Assembly: GCA_017643395.1 (NCBI GenBank)
Contig: JAEPNP010000006.1
Coordinates: forward strand, 1-64,000
DNA length: 64,000 nucleotides
Reading direction: 5' to 3'
Origin: Rhodothermales bacterium
GTDB lineage: Bacteria; Bacteroidota; Rhodothermia; Rhodothermales; UBA10348
Shown here: positions 10,103-62,658 of the stretch, one piece after another
How the letters are laid out: every line of letters starts with the position of its first letter
Numbering within the stretch: the stretch's first letter is position 1
Program-made: the position numbers and the translations under genes
Notes under the pieces: generated by a model
The model's input: only the letters and a program-made list of their open reading frames with translations
What the model was told of the DNA's origin: nothing
Databases searched by the model: none

Positions 10103-10404
10103 GCCGGGATGGCGGAATTGGTAGACGCAACGGACTCAAGGATGGGTCTCCCGGGGGGAAACGCCCGGGTAACAAAGGAATCAAACTCGGTGAACCCTTA
10201 CCGGCTTCTGTCGCTGGCAACGCCGAGCCAAGCCCCTCCCGAGGGGAAGGTGTAGAGGCCAGACGGTTCCTGCCTACATCGGTCTTCCGACATGGTAAAG
10301 GCATGGTCCAGACCACAAACTCTTGCGAGGCCGCGAAAGCGGTAGTGGTACGTAAAATCCGTTGGGGCATATGTCCCGTGCGGGTTCGAGCCCCGCTCCC
10401 GGTA
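10103..10404 (+). tRNA. tRNA-Leu(UAA), interrupted by a group I intron
   Basis: The 5' exon (10103-10136) has acceptor strand GCCGGGA, the D arm GCGGAATTGGTAGACGC typical of leucine tRNAs, and anticodon-stem strand ACGGA followed by CT. The 3' exon (10353-10404) starts TAAAA, then TCCGT completes the anticodon stem. It is followed by a long class II variable arm (GGG...CCC), T arm GCGGG-TTCGAGC-CCCGC, acceptor strand TCCCGGT (one G.U pair with base 1) and discriminator A at 10404. CCA is not encoded. Joined, the exons give a seven-base loop CTTAAAA, that is, anticodon UAA. A 216-nt intron separates the exons. Confidence 0.92.
10137..10352 (+). ncRNA. Group I intron in tRNA-Leu(UAA), IC3-like
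   Basis: 216 nt. The 5' exon end GGACU can pair with GGUCU at 10145-10149 to form P1 with a U.G pair at the splice site, and the intron ends in G at 10352, as the terminal guanosine should. P2 is CCCGGG/CCCGGG around 10151-10168. P4 forms from CUCGG in ACUCGGUGAACCC and CCGAG in CGCCGAGCCAAGCCC, which match the P and Q core strands. P6 is CCCCUC/GAGGGG. GGUGUAGAGGCCAGACGG matches the R strand, and AAGGCAUGGUCC the S strand of P7. UCGG-UCUU-CCGA is a hairpin in the P8 area. CCGC-GAAA-GCGG is a P9 hairpin with a GNRA tetraloop. The size and the GAGCCAA and GUGUAGAG core strings resemble cyanobacterial tRNA-Leu introns. No endonuclease ORF lies inside. Confidence 0.9.
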
Positions 10405-10407
10405 CCG

Positions 10408-10438
10408 AAGGGGTGCCTTCCTCGTGAAGGTACCCCTT
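10408..10438 (+). terminator. Terminator-like hairpin after tRNA-Leu
   Basis: AAGGGGTGCCTTC and GAAGGTACCCCTT form a 13-bp stem with a single G.T pair around the loop CTCGT, starting 3 bases after the tRNA discriminator. There is no long T run, but the stem is strong and well placed to end the tRNA transcript. Confidence 0.75.
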
Positions 10439-11076: not shown

Positions 11077-13362
11077 GTGGCCCGGTCCAACCTGGTCAAG
11101 GGACTCTTCGCCCGCCGGGCGGAAAGAGCCGCAGTCAAGCGCTTTGCCCGCTGTGAGCAGCGTACGGGCGATGTACTTGCGATAGCCCCCACCCTGCGGA
11201 CCCAGGCGCAAGGCGCCCTGGTCGATATTGCGCGATCCCCGGAGGCAACCCTGGAGCGCCGAGTAGCCGCCATGCTCGAGCTCACCGAGCGCACGCTCGG
11301 CATGCGCCCCTACCCGGTCCAGATCGCCGCAGGCCTGGCCCTCCTCGAAGGCCACATGGTGCAGATGGACACGGGCGAAGGAAAGACGCTGGCCGCGGTC
11401 ATCCCTGCCGCCCTCCTGGCCATGGAACATGGCGCCACCCATGTGCTCACGTTCAACACCTATCTGGCCGAGCGTGACGCGGCGTGGATGGGCGCCTTTT
11501 ACCGTGCACTCGGACTGACGGTCGGTGCGGTCTCCGGCGACCCCGATGCCCGCCGACATGCCTACGCCTGCGACATCACGTACGCCACCGCGAAAGAAGC
11601 GTGCTTCGACCTGCTCAGAGACCATCGAGCCTTCTCCCAGGCGGAACGTCTGCACCGCCCACTGCGCGCGGCCATCGTGGACGAAGCCGACTCCATCCTG
11701 ATTGACGAGGCGAGGATTCCGCTGGTCCTGGCCGCCGATCGCGAACGCTCGGGCACGGATCCGGCGCGCATCGCCCGACTGGTCGCTGACCTGGAACCCG
11801 GCAGCCACTACGAGCAGGATGCCACCGCGATGACCGTAGACCTCACGGACCGGGGGCTGCAGCATCTGGAACGACAACTGGGCATCGACAGCCTGCACGA
11901 TCCGTCGCGCTACCTGCTGCTCACCGAGCTGAATCAGGCCCTGCACGCCGCAGCGCTGCTCACCCGGGATGAAGACTACATCGTGCGCGATGCACGCATT
12001 GAGATTGTGGATCCCCTGACCGGACGTGTCGTGCCGGATCGGCGATGGCCAGACGGCCTGCAGGCTGCCGTCGAAGCCAAGGAGGGCGTACCGATTCAGC
12101 CCGGTGGCCGCATCCTGGAGCGGATCACCATGCAGCATTTTCTCGAGCACTATCCCGCGCGCGCCGGCATGACGGCAACGGCCGTCGATGCGGCCGAGGA
12201 ATTCGAGGAGGGCTACGGGATGCCGGTCGTCGTGGTGCCACCGCATCGCCCGAGCGGACGGGATGACCTGGTCGATTCGATTTTTGCCACAACCGGGGCC
12301 AAGGAGCGGGCCCTGGCAGACCGGGTCCACGCCATGACCCGTCGCGAACGACCGGTGCTCGTGGGCACGGCCTCCGTGGCCGAGTCGGAGCGCATTCAAA
12401 CGCTGCTGAGGGACCGCGGCACGGACTGCGCCGTGCTCAATGCCCGCAATGACCGCGAAGAGGCCGCGATCATCGCCGACGCCGGTCTGCCCGGCAGGGT
12501 GACGGTCTCGACCAACATGGCGGGTCGCGGCACGGACATTCGCCTGGGTGGACACGATGAGGCCTTGAGGGAACAGGTTGTGCGGGCGGGCGGCCTGCAT
12601 GTCATCGGAACTACTCGACACGAATCCAGACGAATCGATCGCCAGCTCCGCGGCCGCGCCGGCCGCCAGGGAGACCCGGGAAGCAGCGAATTCCTCATTT
12701 GTCTCGAGGACGCCATGATGGAGCGATTCGAGATCGACGAACTGGTGCCGAAACAGCTGCGGTCGACCCTGCAGCGCACGCGCCTGCAACACCCCATGGT
12801 GCAGCGGGAGGTAGACCGCGTTCAACGCATCGCAGACTCCCGAAACCGGGAAATCCGCGGAACGACTGCCCGATACTCTGCAGTCCTGGAGCAGCAGCGC
12901 AAACAGGCGTCCCGGATTCGGGAGCCGTTCGTGCACGAAGCGCCTGAGCCCATCGGCCGCCTGACCGCAGAACACACGAGGCGGCTCTACCTGGACACGT
13001 TCGATACGCTCTGGGCGGACCATCTGGCCCTGGCAGCCGACATTGAAGAAGGCGTGCACCTGGTTCGGCTCGGGGGTCTGGATCCTCTGCGCGAATACAA
13101 CAAGCAACTGGCGGAGGCATTCCGTGATTTCGAAGAGCGCCTGCACCAGGAGGTCGCCGAGCGGGCCGCAAGGGCTGCGCAGGATCCGCCGCCGGGCCCC
13201 GGCTCGACGTGGGCCTATCTGGTCAGCGATCGAGCCGGGTCACCGCTGCAAAACATGTTGTTCGGATCGGGCGCGGGTGCGATCTCGGCTGTCGGAGCGG
13301 CGATGTTGTGGCCGGTGCTCATGATGTGGGGCTGGCGGGAGCGTCGGCGCCGGCGGGACTGA
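11077..13362 (+). CDS. SecA paralogue (accessory SecA-like ATPase) with C-terminal membrane segment
   Basis: 761 residues, shorter than housekeeping SecA (~850-1100). Helicase motifs in order: Walker A MDTGEGKT (about 97-104), Walker B VDEADSILIDEARIPL (from ~201; SecA normally has DEVD), a motif V TNMAGRGTD (from ~479) and motif VI QLRGRAGRQGDPGSS (from ~523). The C-terminal part keeps the shortened scaffold (ERLHQEVAERA), but the SecA zinc-binding tail is missing. In its place is a hydrophobic segment, SAVGAAMLWPVLMMWGW, followed by RERRRRRD, which looks like a membrane anchor with a basic cytoplasmic end. The GTG at 11077 lies 3 bases after a lipoprotein gene. It is likely a specialised preprotein motor rather than the main SecA. 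Confidence 0.85.
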   Translation: MARSNLVKGLFARRAERAAVKRFARCEQRTGDVLAIAPTLRTQAQGALVDIARSPEATLERRVAAMLELTERTLGMRPYPVQIAAGLALLEGHMVQMDTGEGKTLAAVIPAALLAMEHGATHVLTFNTYLAERDAAWMGAFYRALGLTVGAVSGDPDARRHAYACDITYATAKEACFDLLRDHRAFSQAERLHRPLRAAIVDEADSILIDEARIPLVLAADRERSGTDPARIARLVADLEPGSHYEQDATAMTVDLTDRGLQHLERQLGIDSLHDPSRYLLLTELNQALHAAALLTRDEDYIVRDARIEIVDPLTGRVVPDRRWPDGLQAAVEAKEGVPIQPGGRILERITMQHFLEHYPARAGMTATAVDAAEEFEEGYGMPVVVVPPHRPSGRDDLVDSIFATTGAKERALADRVHAMTRRERPVLVGTASVAESERIQTLLRDRGTDCAVLNARNDREEAAIIADAGLPGRVTVSTNMAGRGTDIRLGGHDEALREQVVRAGGLHVIGTTRHESRRIDRQLRGRAGRQGDPGSSEFLICLEDAMMERFEIDELVPKQLRSTLQRTRLQHPMVQREVDRVQRIADSRNREIRGTTARYSAVLEQQRKQASRIREPFVHEAPEPIGRLTAEHTRRLYLDTFDTLWADHLALAADIEEGVHLVRLGGLDPLREYNKQLAEAFRDFEERLHQEVAERAARAAQDPPPGPGSTWAYLVSDRAGSPLQNMLFGSGAGAISAVGAAMLWPVLMMWGWRERRRRRD

Positions 13363-13476: not shown

Positions 13477-14238
13477 ATGAGCCCCGAAAACACCACTGAG
13501 GCCCTGCTAGATGTAGCGCGGGAATTCGCCTCCCGCGCCCACGTGCCCTACTCCCGCCGTGCGGCTTCCGCGGCCGTGCTTCTCCCGGACGGGGGGATTG
13601 TCGCGGGCGTTCGGGTGGAGAGCGCCTCGTTCCCGCTCACAATCCCGGCCGCGTTGAACGCCGTCACGACGGCCGTCGCCATGGGCCATCGGGAACTGGT
13701 GGCTCTCGCCGTGGCCGGACCCGTGCCCGCATCGACGACCGCCCTGGCATCCGGCTTCGGCCTCCTGCCTGCCGGGGATCGGTTCTGGTGCTGGAACGGA
13801 GCCGTGCCCACACCACGGGACGTGCGCAGCCCGTTCATTGTGCAGGCGAACGGTGACATGATCGCGCTCGCCCGCGAGGCCGCGCGCAGGGCGCATATCC
13901 CGGAATCCGAGTTCCCTGTCGGCGCGGTATTGCGTACGCGCGACGGCCGACTCATCCCGGGCTGCAACGTGGAACACCCCGATTGGACGTGCATTCTCTG
14001 CGCCGAGCGCAACGCTCTGGGCACCGCAGTTACGTACGATGCCCTCCCCGCCGAAATGCTGGCGCTGAGTTGCCCGACGGCGCCCGATGCATCACCCTGC
14101 GGTGCCTGTCGCCAGTTGATATTTGAGCTGATCCGGGACGCGACCATCACGATCGACCGGGGCGCCAAACCCGCCGAACGTATATCGCCCTCCTCCCTGT
14201 TGCCGGGAGCCTTCTCCGGAAGCGCGCTGAGCTCCTAG
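13477..14238 (+). CDS. cdd: Two-domain cytidine deaminase, N-terminal domain inactive
   Basis: 253 residues made of two cytidine-deaminase-like halves. The C-terminal half (about 120-245) has all active-site parts: GCNVEHPDW, then CAER with Cys175 as zinc ligand and Glu177 as proton shuttle, then PCGACRQ with Cys208 and Cys211. It should convert cytidine or deoxycytidine to the uridine form in pyrimidine salvage. The N-terminal half (about 5-105) keeps the fold signatures VPYSR...AAVLLPDGGIVAGVRVESAS, but has PAALNA where CAERNA is expected and no PCxxC, so it cannot bind zinc. E. coli Cdd also has one dead half, but there the dead half is C-terminal. The ATG at 13477 follows a short repeat array. 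Confidence 0.9.
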   Translation: MSPENTTEALLDVAREFASRAHVPYSRRAASAAVLLPDGGIVAGVRVESASFPLTIPAALNAVTTAVAMGHRELVALAVAGPVPASTTALASGFGLLPAGDRFWCWNGAVPTPRDVRSPFIVQANGDMIALAREAARRAHIPESEFPVGAVLRTRDGRLIPGCNVEHPDWTCILCAERNALGTAVTYDALPAEMLALSCPTAPDASPCGACRQLIFELIRDATITIDRGAKPAERISPSSLLPGAFSGSALSS

Positions 14239-14260
14239 AAGACCACCTGATTCCGCCTTC

Positions 14261-15244
14261 ATGCTCTACCTGATCCTGCTCTTTATCCTTGGGTTGGGCG
14301 CACTGTATCTGGGGGCAGACTGGTTGGTTCGAGGCGCCAGCGCCATCGCCCTCCGCCTGGGCATCAGACCCATGGTGATCGGCCTGACCATTGTGGCTGT
14401 GGGCACGTCGATGCCCGAACTCCTGCTGAACGTGGTCGCCGTGCTCGACGGGCAGGATGCGCTGGCGATCGGCAATATCGTCGGCAGCAACATCGCCAAC
14501 ATCGCACTGATCCTGGGCATCACGGCGCTCCTGCTCCCGCTCACCGTCGAGCCGGAAGCACTGAAGAAGGAATACCCGATGATGCTCGGAATCACCCTTC
14601 TGTTCTGGTTTCTGGCGTCCAACGGGCGCATCGGCCGCATTGACGGCATCATTCTCGTCGCGTGCCTGTTTGCCTTCATGGCCTACATCCTGATCGCGAA
14701 TCGCAGGAGTTCGGCTCCGCCTGTGGACCTCCCGCTCGAAGAGGAAAAGGAAGGCGCCGTTGGCGACACGCTGATAGCCCGGTTGCGGTCCAGCACCTGG
14801 GGACGCGTTGCCTATGTCGTGTTCGGCATGGTGATGCTTGCCATCGGTGCCGACCTGCTTGTGGACTCGGCCGTCGGCATGGCGGATATCCTGGGCATCC
14901 ATCCCGGGGTGATTGGCCTCACGGCGTTGGCCGTCGGCACCAGCCTTCCCGAACTCGCCGCCTCCCTGGTCTCGGCCCTTCGCGGCGAATCCGACCTATC
15001 GGTCGGCAACGTTCTCGGGTCGAATATGCTGAACATCATGTTCGTCGTGGGACTCGTGGCCCTGATTCAGCCGATGACCATTGATCCGGACGCCCTGCGA
15101 CTGCACTTCCCGATCATGGTCGGGTTCACGCTGCTGCTGTTCCCGCTCGCGTGGACACACCAGCGCATCAATCGCTACGAAGGCGGTCTGCTGCTGTCAG
15201 GATTCGTCGCCTATTTCGCCTACCTCCTGGTCCCGTATTTCTAA
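14261..15244 (+). CDS. Calcium/sodium antiporter (CaCA family, YrbG-like)
   Basis: 327 residues, about 10 membrane helices in two inverted halves. Each half carries an alpha-repeat: GTSMPELLLN with GNIVGSNIANIALILG in the first, and GTSLPELAAS with GNVLGSNMLNIMFVVG in the second. The Glu of GTS-x-PE binds the ions. The halves are joined by a short cytoplasmic loop rich in Glu and Lys (about 155-175). It is an inner-membrane cation exchanger, most likely Ca2+ or Na+ for H+. The stop overlaps the ATG of the protease gene by one base (TAATG), so the two are coupled. Confidence 0.93.
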   Translation: MLYLILLFILGLGALYLGADWLVRGASAIALRLGIRPMVIGLTIVAVGTSMPELLLNVVAVLDGQDALAIGNIVGSNIANIALILGITALLLPLTVEPEALKKEYPMMLGITLLFWFLASNGRIGRIDGIILVACLFAFMAYILIANRRSSAPPVDLPLEEEKEGAVGDTLIARLRSSTWGRVAYVVFGMVMLAIGADLLVDSAVGMADILGIHPGVIGLTALAVGTSLPELAASLVSALRGESDLSVGNVLGSNMLNIMFVVGLVALIQPMTIDPDALRLHFPIMVGFTLLLFPLAWTHQRINRYEGGLLLSGFVAYFAYLLVPYF

Positions 15245-61503: not shown

Positions 61504-62658
61504 GGTAAGCTCCGGGCGGTCCGGGGCAAACAGATCGCCGGCCTCGTCAACCGCGCCCGTCAGACCGCGGGCCAGCAGCTGCCCGGCCCGGAATCCATAC
61601 GCCATGCCGTGACCGGTGAAGCCGGTTGCCATCCAAATTCCATCGCCCACCGGTCCCACGACCGGGAGCCCGTCTGGCGAGAAGCCCATGATGCCTGACC
61701 AGCGGCGCACTACCTCGGCTCCGGCGAGGGACGGGAAGTGTGCATGCGCATAGGCCTCCAGGTCTGCCTGAAGCTTGACCGACGTGCCCTCGAGGAACCC
61801 CGCCTCTTCGGTCCGATGCCGGTGACGCGCCCCTCCAACAAGGACGCGCCCGTCATAGTCGCTGCGCAGATAATAGTACCCCTCGTGGCTATAGACCGGC
61901 GCGGGAATGCGCGCCGGAACGCGTGGTTTGAGCGCCAGCATCTGGGCCCTGTGCGGCTCCACCCAGGCCGCGGCGGCAGGCCATAGATCGGGGGCCCACG
62001 GACCGGCGGCGATGACAATCTGGTCGGCGCGTACCTCGAAGCCATCGCCAACCACGCGGCCTTGATGGACCGCGACCGCACGGTGATTCCTACGCACGAG
62101 GGCCCCTGAACGTGCAACGAGTTGGTTGACCAGCTCGAACGGGTCCAGCATGCCACCTGTCTCGGTGAACAGGCCTCCGAGGAATCCGACCGACCCAATG
62201 CGGGCATTCAGCGCGTCGGACTCCAGAAAGGAACCCGCAAAACCGTCTTCGCGCATGCGCCCGGCCGACCGGCGCAGGCGTTCTTCCTCGGCACCGTCCC
62301 CGGCGACGGTCAGACTGCCGGAGGGCACGAAGCGGAAGGCGGCACCGGGAATCTCGTCAAGCAGGCGATCGCGGTTCTCGTGCGTAAACCGGCGCAGGCG
62401 ACGGGCGCGATCCAGTCCATAGAGTTCAATGTCCGTGACGTAGTCAGTAACCGCTCCCTGTAGCAAAAAACCGGCATTCCGGCCGCTGGCGCCCCAGGCC
62501 GGCCATCGTGCGTCGAGCACCGTCACGCGCAGCGCAGGCGCGACCCGGCGCAGCCAGAAGGCCGTGGAACACCCCAGAATTCCCGCGCCGACAATGCAGA
62601 CGTCCGCCTCCAGCCGGGCCGGTGAAGCTGTATGCCACACGGATCGGGTCATGCGCAC
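61483..62658 (-). CDS. FAD-dependent amino-acid oxidase-like protein (DadA/DAO family)
   Basis: 391 residues from the GTG at 62658; the ATG at 62652 is 6 bases later and may be the true start. The FAD-binding motif VCIVGAGILGCSTAFWLRR is near residue 20, followed by GASGRNAGFLLQG, which recalls glycine and D-amino-acid oxidases. The late WSGIMGFSPDGLPVVGPVG is also typical. It oxidises a secondary or primary amine; the substrate is unknown. It overlaps the end of the AcuI-like gene read in the same direction. Confidence 0.9.
   Translation of the reverse strand: MRMTRSVWHTASPARLEADVCIVGAGILGCSTAFWLRRVAPALRVTVLDARWPAWGASGRNAGFLLQGAVTDYVTDIELYGLDRARRLRRFTHENRDRLLDEIPGAAFRFVPSGSLTVAGDGAEEERLRRSAGRMREDGFAGSFLESDALNARIGSVGFLGGLFTETGGMLDPFELVNQLVARSGALVRRNHRAVAVHQGRVVGDGFEVRADQIVIAAGPWAPDLWPAAAAWVEPHRAQMLALKPRVPARIPAPVYSHEGYYYLRSDYDGRVLVGGARHRHRTEEAGFLEGTSVKLQADLEAYAHAHFPSLAGAEVVRRWSGIMGFSPDGLPVVGPVGDGIWMATGFTGHGMAYGFRAGQLLARGLTGAVDEAGDLFAPDRPELTAHAASA

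Follow-up and report, generated by a model that had tools for sequence, protein, structure and literature searches.

A small group I intron at a predicted 33/34 site, one base before the usual one, in a tRNA-Leu(UAA) gene of a Rhodothermales bacterium

We analysed a stretch of 64,000 nucleotides from a Rhodothermales bacterium (the window), in which a tRNA-Leu(UAA) gene is split by an insert of 216 nt (Table 1). With introns allowed, ARAGORN called a tRNA-Leu(taa) with a 216-nt intron at 10103-10404, and it found no tRNA in this span when run without them. Once joined, the exons fold into a regular cloverleaf with the anticodon UAA and a long variable arm, and their anticodon arm, ACGGACUUAAAAUCCGU, is the same as in the uninterrupted tRNA-Leu(UAA) genes of relatives. 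The 5′ exon ends in GGACU and the 3′ exon begins with UAAAAUCC, directly after G10352 of the intron. The first-pass annotation of this DNA had read the span as a complete leucine tRNA made of two exons around an insert of this length, and both its coordinates and the cloverleaf agree with our results. A consensus scan around the gene revealed neither a sigma-70 promoter nor a U-run terminator; a G+C-rich hairpin seen by eye lies 3′ of the gene (10410-10420 with 10426-10436). Beside the tRNA lies a gene that we named by eye as a SecA-like ATPase (11077-13362), a homologue of which is found near the tRNA in one congener (locus L032).

Table 1. Features of the interrupted tRNA-Leu(UAA) gene and of its surroundings, in window coordinates.
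Feature	Position	Strand	Remarks
tRNA-Leu(UAA) 5′ exon	10103..10136	+	acceptor strand to U33; from the joined-exon cloverleaf
Group I intron, 216 nt	10137..10352	+	between positions 33 and 34; last base G
tRNA-Leu(UAA) 3′ exon	10353..10404	+	U34 to discriminator A
P1	10133..10148	+	exon GACU (10133-10136) and C10137 pair with guide GGGUC (10144-10148); by eye
5′ splice site mark	U10136.G10145	+	U.G wobble within P1
P2 hairpin	10150-10155 with 10164-10169	+	by eye; also in the minimum-energy fold
P3	10177-10182 with 10265-10270	+	paired in 32/32; two-sided changes in 4/6 pairs
P4	10187-10192 with 10221-10226	+	32-sequence alignment
P5, inside P4	10196-10197 with 10216-10217	+	32-sequence alignment
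P6	10227-10229 with 10249-10251	+	invariant, hence no covariation evidence
P6a	10233-10236 with 10243-10246	+	32-sequence alignment
P7	10257-10261 with 10304-10308	+	all cells paired; two-sided changes in two pairs
P8	10272-10274 with 10294-10296 and 10279-10282 with 10287-10290	+	distal part paired in 66.7% of cells
P9 outer helix	10312-10316 with 10345-10349	+	by eye
P9 hairpin, GAAA tetraloop	10331-10334/10339-10342	+	by eye
Deaminase-like and exchanger-like genes	13477-15244		named by eye

The insert has the layout of a group I intron. The elements described in the first-pass annotation, namely a P1 closed by a U.G pair, P2, the P/Q and R/S strands, P8, a P9 hairpin with a GAAA loop and a terminal G, are all present. 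The pairing of P1, its U.G wobble, which falls at U33, and the terminal G are identical in the congeneric loci L032 and L033, and the GAAA loop of P9 is found both in the congeners and in the introns of the Salinibacter type. P7 has an oddity of this genus, the wobble G10258.U10307, at a pair that is A-U in 29 of the 32 introns that we aligned; it presumably adjoins the guanosine-binding pair. We take the subgroup of the intron to be IC3-like.

To assess its class we aligned 32 intron cores under a structure that we drew up manually from the established layout and from these same sequences. Pairing was found in 93.1% of the cells compared with 77.8% in shuffles, cells with changes on both sides numbered 161 compared with 54.7, and with the partners slid by 1-3 columns pairing fell to between 27.6 and 46.4%. 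Further pair types were no more numerous in these 32 cores than in the shuffles. The crossing helices P3 and P7 are both paired in every one of the cores, each with compensatory changes, and the result holds on the 30 sequences that exclude the window's genus. A covariance model built from 30 introns, again without this genus (R2; its calibration was short and its E values are rough), matched 10172-10315 of the window intron with 107.1 bits and an E value of 3e-25, compared with 10.4 bits for the next-best place in the window, and gave 112.5 and 115.1 bits to the introns of the two congeners.

The general Rfam model RF00028, on the other hand, had no match in the window at its gathering score, none on a 721-base stretch at E ≤ 10 and none in the whole genome at E ≤ 0.001; no ordinary tRNA family of Rfam matched at the locus either, at the gathering score or at E ≤ 10. 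When we ran RF00028 on 12 intron loci as a control, 11 were reported, four of them above the gathering score, and the one missed was the congeneric L032. Since RF00028 misses both the window and L032 while R2 finds the window intron clearly, the genus escapes the public model and is yet a clear group I member: the miss reflects the limited reach of RF00028 and does not speak against subgroup membership. The covariance-model check that the first-pass annotation had proposed thus came out negative with the public model and strongly positive with the dedicated one. The folding energy of the intron did not differ significantly from shuffles (z -0.92). Taken together, these results identify the insert as a group I intron of a known class, which is very probably self-splicing.

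The textbook trnL intron lies between U34 and A35 of tRNA-Leu(UAA). Judging from the sequence, the intron of the window is placed one base upstream of this common site, between positions 33 and 34, because the guide sequence and the 3′ boundary of the intron are each shifted by one base in that direction; the first-pass annotation had the class of the intron right and overlooked that its site is 33/34 rather than 34/35. All three genomes of the genus that we examined have the tRNA-Leu(UAA) intron at 33/34, in G002 by rule placement and in G001 (locus L033, which has no ARAGORN call and whose contig stops within the 3′ exon) by eye, and the introns of these two congeners are 82-83% identical to that of the window over the part compared. 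Our site rule gives credit for a U at the end of the exon and for a G at the end of the intron, and so leans to such sites; it put the low-scoring introns L088 and L097 at 36/37 and 38/39, where by eye we read 34/35. The sequence GGACU also stands directly ahead of base 34 in several tRNAs. According to a review, most bacterial and plastid tRNA introns lie at 37/38 (PMC4033280).

Among the introns that we examined outside the genus, one tRNA-Leu(UAA) intron lies at 33/34, in a distant member of the phylum (locus L402, genome G277, G277:C1 at about 434993-435149). It is 725 nt long and contains a stop-free frame of 173 codons, 156 of them from the first ATG, the end of which resembles HNH endonucleases; its match to Pfam HNH_3 (E 4e-5) reaches 23.6 bits, just short of the cut-off of 24.8. 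In an alphaproteobacterial metagenome-assembled genome (MAG), a tRNA-Leu(CAA) intron (L156) lies by eye at 33/34 if it ends in G, a placement that the site rule scored low. These two cases indicate that 33/34 is rare but not private to the genus. Among 394 genomes of the phylum, the P1 pattern turned up in that of the window and in 12 more; as the reversed pattern matched about 27 times, we took the 12 as chance. A stricter P1 pattern matched 26 stretches in viral contigs, none of them with the core, and in the literature, judged by titles, we found nothing on the site 33/34.

The genome of the window has 42 tRNA genes above the cut-off, with the leucine anticodons TAG, CAA, CAG and GAG, and none with TAA, in an assembly that is 98% complete and consists of 21 contigs. 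This list also has no tRNA-Ile(GAT) and no tRNA-Ala(TGC), and is therefore incomplete. An uninterrupted UAA gene was not found by pattern in any of the three genomes of the genus, in agreement with the outcome of the search for a second, uninterrupted copy in the window's own genome that had been put forward earlier. Thus, the interrupted gene seems to be the only detected decoder of UUA, which would make the reading of this codon dependent on splicing. The earlier claim extended such dependence to UUG as well; its UUA part stands, while UUG drops out since the genome has a tRNA-Leu(CAA). The codon at stake is very rare in the window: in 35 ORFs chosen by length, each with 200 codons or more, UUA accounts for 5 of the 1859 leucine codons. 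Because the search for an uninterrupted UAA gene came out empty, we agree with the first-pass annotation that the intron is probably active. In the mechanism that we propose, the precursor would be transcribed, an external G would attack after U33, held by the U.G pair of P1, the freed U33 would attack after the last G of the intron, and the exons would join to give the anticodon loop CUUAAAA.

Two other readings of the gene have to be weighed against this mechanism. If the real splicing took place at 34/35, C34 would be left in the product, the gene would yield a second tRNA-Leu(CAA) and UUA would be without a dedicated decoder. The first base of the intron is indeed a C, and 34/35 is the site of at least 59 placed tRNA-Leu(UAA) introns and of at least 62 more in viral contigs. 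However, the intron would then end in U and not in G, the U.G pair of P1 falls at U33, a G stands directly before UAAAAUCC in all three members of the genus, and the genome already has a CAA tRNA, all of which makes splicing at 34/35 extremely unlikely. We consider it very improbable, too, that the intron is a dead relic and the gene a pseudogene, with UUA either hardly needed or read by a tRNA missing from the assembly. The rarity of UUA and an assembly in 21 contigs without some expected tRNAs would fit such a relic, as would the G.U wobble in P7 and the failure of RF00028 to match, but both exons are intact, the helices of the core are preserved in three genomes, the two other introns being 82-83% identical to that of the window over the part compared, and the pattern for an uninterrupted copy had no match in any of these three. 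We therefore keep splicing at 33/34 in an active intron as our reading. That the insert is a small ORF-less tRNA-type (IC3) intron, with the proposed splicing at 33/34 and a probable gain in the ancestor of the genus, is, as a whole, highly likely.

The distribution within the order bears on this gain. With a core model (R1) at E ≤ 0.001 we matched 39 of 114 genomes of the order Rhodothermales, two of which (G008 and G011) rest on weak matches of about 31 bits only. Introns in tRNA-Leu(UAA) are found in at least 11 genomes of the order: three at 33/34, all from this genus, and eight at 34/35 (G012, G038, G048, G057, G069, G086, G091 and G112). Further introns of the order interrupt CAU tRNAs and tRNAs read as Arg(UCU). 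An uninterrupted Leu(UAA) gene was recognised by pattern in 73 of the 114 genomes (the pattern matched 78, of which five carry only a CAA gene), and in 21 of the 24 other members of the family, the three without it being at most 74% complete. One family member, G012, has both an uninterrupted (C33:41588) and a 34/35-interrupted (L219) tRNA-Leu(UAA). In a sample of 394 genomes of the phylum, 30 matched the core, most of them from this order. A survey of relatives for the same insert, as suggested earlier, showed the 33/34 intron in the congeners and, by pattern, an uninterrupted gene in most of the order. In the congener G001, two more tRNA genes have inserts that resemble introns but are large and divergent (L248 and L252, with R1 scores of 48.7 and 28.6 bits). 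Judged by titles, we found no paper on a Salinibacter or Rhodothermus tRNA intron.

We also compared the surroundings of the gene. Homologues of the deaminase-like or exchanger-like genes of the window lie within 1.5 kb of 19 of 22 verified intronless loci; a 23rd locus (L055), whose uninterrupted gene is unverified, is without them. With intronless orthologues at the same locus, the locus appears to be old and mostly intronless, and a gain within the genus is the simplest account. Comparison of these sequences thus suggests that the intron was probably gained in the ancestor of the genus, and favours the first-pass proposal that the lineage had received it.

Introns of this class occur in many other hosts. 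A scan of a species-genome collection, restricted to cores of the U-variant in which the P6 loop is short, returned at least 119 stretches with the core, and ARAGORN with introns allowed, together with the site rule, placed at least 96 introns with a high score. Among the 96 listed, 52 interrupt tRNA-Leu(UAA), all at 34/35 and none at 33/34, while the remainder lie in tRNAs read as Arg(CCU) (20), CAU (15), Thr (5) and Lys (3), plus one odd case. The hosts of the 52 listed are Pseudomonadota (46), Acidobacteriota (3), Vulcanimicrobiota (1), Bacteroidota (1) and one unassigned record. In the species-genome and order loci, 17 core matches have no placement, and low-scoring placements were left out of the counts. 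A Coriobacteriia MAG has an intron-bearing tRNA (L092) best read by eye as Leu(CAA), with the intron after C34. At L086, two intron-bearing tRNA-Leu genes lie on opposite strands of one contig, the second seemingly without the usual 3′ half. A tRNA-Leu(UAA) intron was reportedly described from a gammaproteobacterium in 2002.

Viral contigs yielded at least 120 stretches with the core; among the matches listed, 82 were placed, 78 of them with a high score, and 38 core matches have no placement. At least 62 of the high-score introns lie at 34/35 of tRNA-Leu(UAA). A protein scan of three contigs identified phage tail genes on two (L261 and L293) and a RIIA gene on the third (L262). A gene like those of homing endonucleases lies near the intron-bearing tRNA of L293. 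A passage in PMC3984707 states that all phage introns observed to date are in protein-coding genes; the tRNA-Leu(UAA) introns in phage contigs go beyond this statement.

Among 72,556 plasmid records, 1271 match the gene with its intron at 60-80% identity; we inspected two of these 1271 and read one as an intact intron-bearing gene. This is pCTX-M3 (L400, NC_004464.2), a conjugative plasmid with an unannotated, complete-looking tRNA-Leu(UAA) at 61830-62076, near aac(3)-IId, whose 34/35 intron is like the alphaproteobacterial ones. Plasmids with similar DNA are mostly those of Enterobacteriaceae.

The first-pass view that the intron lies outside its usual hosts is therefore mostly wrong, as many Pseudomonadota, some Acidobacteriota and members of other groups have the same class in tRNA-Leu(UAA), and so do phage contigs and plasmids. 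Of its alternative suggestion, that such introns are older and wider spread than assumed, the wider spread is shown by their presence in genomes of several phyla, viral contigs and plasmids. Introns in tRNA-Leu(UAA) are thus frequent well beyond the usual hosts, and as ARAGORN without introns, and RF00028 for this genus, overlook the gene, genomes can seem to lack a UUA decoder. A passage in PMC8450103 reports 36 genomes with fMet or Ile2 genes hidden by such introns.

To place the introns of the genus among these we built two trees of intron cores, omitting low-scoring or unplaced introns, identical cores, two introns whose core our cutting rule did not find and, on the same ground, L403 and L404, and dropping four long-branch rows from the second. 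The three introns of the genus form one group in both (100/99 and 100/98), and the trees disagree on its neighbours, the bootstrap not having converged. L156 is the closest row to the genus in the first tree, whereas L402 is separate from it in the free version of the second and has other rows as its nearest. Joining the genus with the 34/35 introns of the Salinibacter type was not rejected in either tree (p-AU 0.42 in the first and 0.50 in the second). Joining it with L402 gave a p-AU of 0.78 and a likelihood 32 log units better than the free tree, and joining it with L219, the family's own 34/35 intron, gave a p-AU of 0.60 and a likelihood 13 log units better. Since these constrained trees beat the free tree, the free search had not converged.

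These results leave room for two accounts of the origin of the site. The introns at 33/34 may represent a second home, separately invaded, with an HNH-driven lineage of its own such as L402 would exemplify, in which case the intron of the window could be an ORF-less descendant or a parallel case; we put this forward tentatively, as a possibility on the doubtful side. Alternatively, a Salinibacter-type intron already present at 34/35 could have slid within the order, both splice sites shifting by one base, with no separate insertion. This would concern the origin only. It draws on introns of the same gene in the same order and on the unions with the Salinibacter-type introns and with L219 that the constraint tests do not reject, the latter with a likelihood better than the free tree. 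Sliding, however, needs matched changes at both ends of the intron and in the guide sequence. A branch of the first tree (99/88), which joins the genus with tRNA-Arg(UCU) and tRNA-Ile-type introns, also speaks against it, but this argument is weak since the second tree places the genus elsewhere; overall we regard sliding as rather unlikely. If separate invasion of 33/34 is true, one tRNA gene was invaded at two neighbouring phosphates within a single order, and introns would change their host tRNA by guide-sequence matching. With introns at two sites that differ by a single base, this gene offers within one order a natural test of how group I introns select and shift their sites.

We finally compared the intron of the window with known systems. 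The trnL intron of cyanobacteria and plastids shares with it the tRNA-Leu(UAA) host, a small group I core and a terminal G, but has the 34/35 site as its defining trait, where the window has 33/34. The window intron may be akin to those of Anabaena and Azoarcus. The Azoarcus-type introns in tRNA-Ile(CAU) of Betaproteobacteria, which we take to be the MCAT_36 rows of our alignments (ARAGORN calls their host tRNA Met), have the same core and grouped with the genus in one of the two trees; unlike that of the window they lie at 36/37 of another tRNA, and the grouping is unstable. The alphaproteobacterial L156 has the P1 pairing of the window, GACUC/GGGUC, but in a host tRNA with CAA instead, and the introns whose identity to its core is highest are alphaproteobacterial ones at 34/35. 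L402 shares both the tRNA-Leu(UAA) host and the 33/34 site, but with 725 nt and an HNH-like frame it contrasts with the ORF-less 216 nt of the window. Finally, the introns of the Salinibacter type (L034, L035, L037, L041, L079, L224 and L226) interrupt the same gene in the same order; four of them, when aligned, have the core helices of the window and are 67-68% identical to it over gene and intron. They are 188-222 nt long and lie at 34/35, with guides that start with GAG where that of the window is GGGUC.
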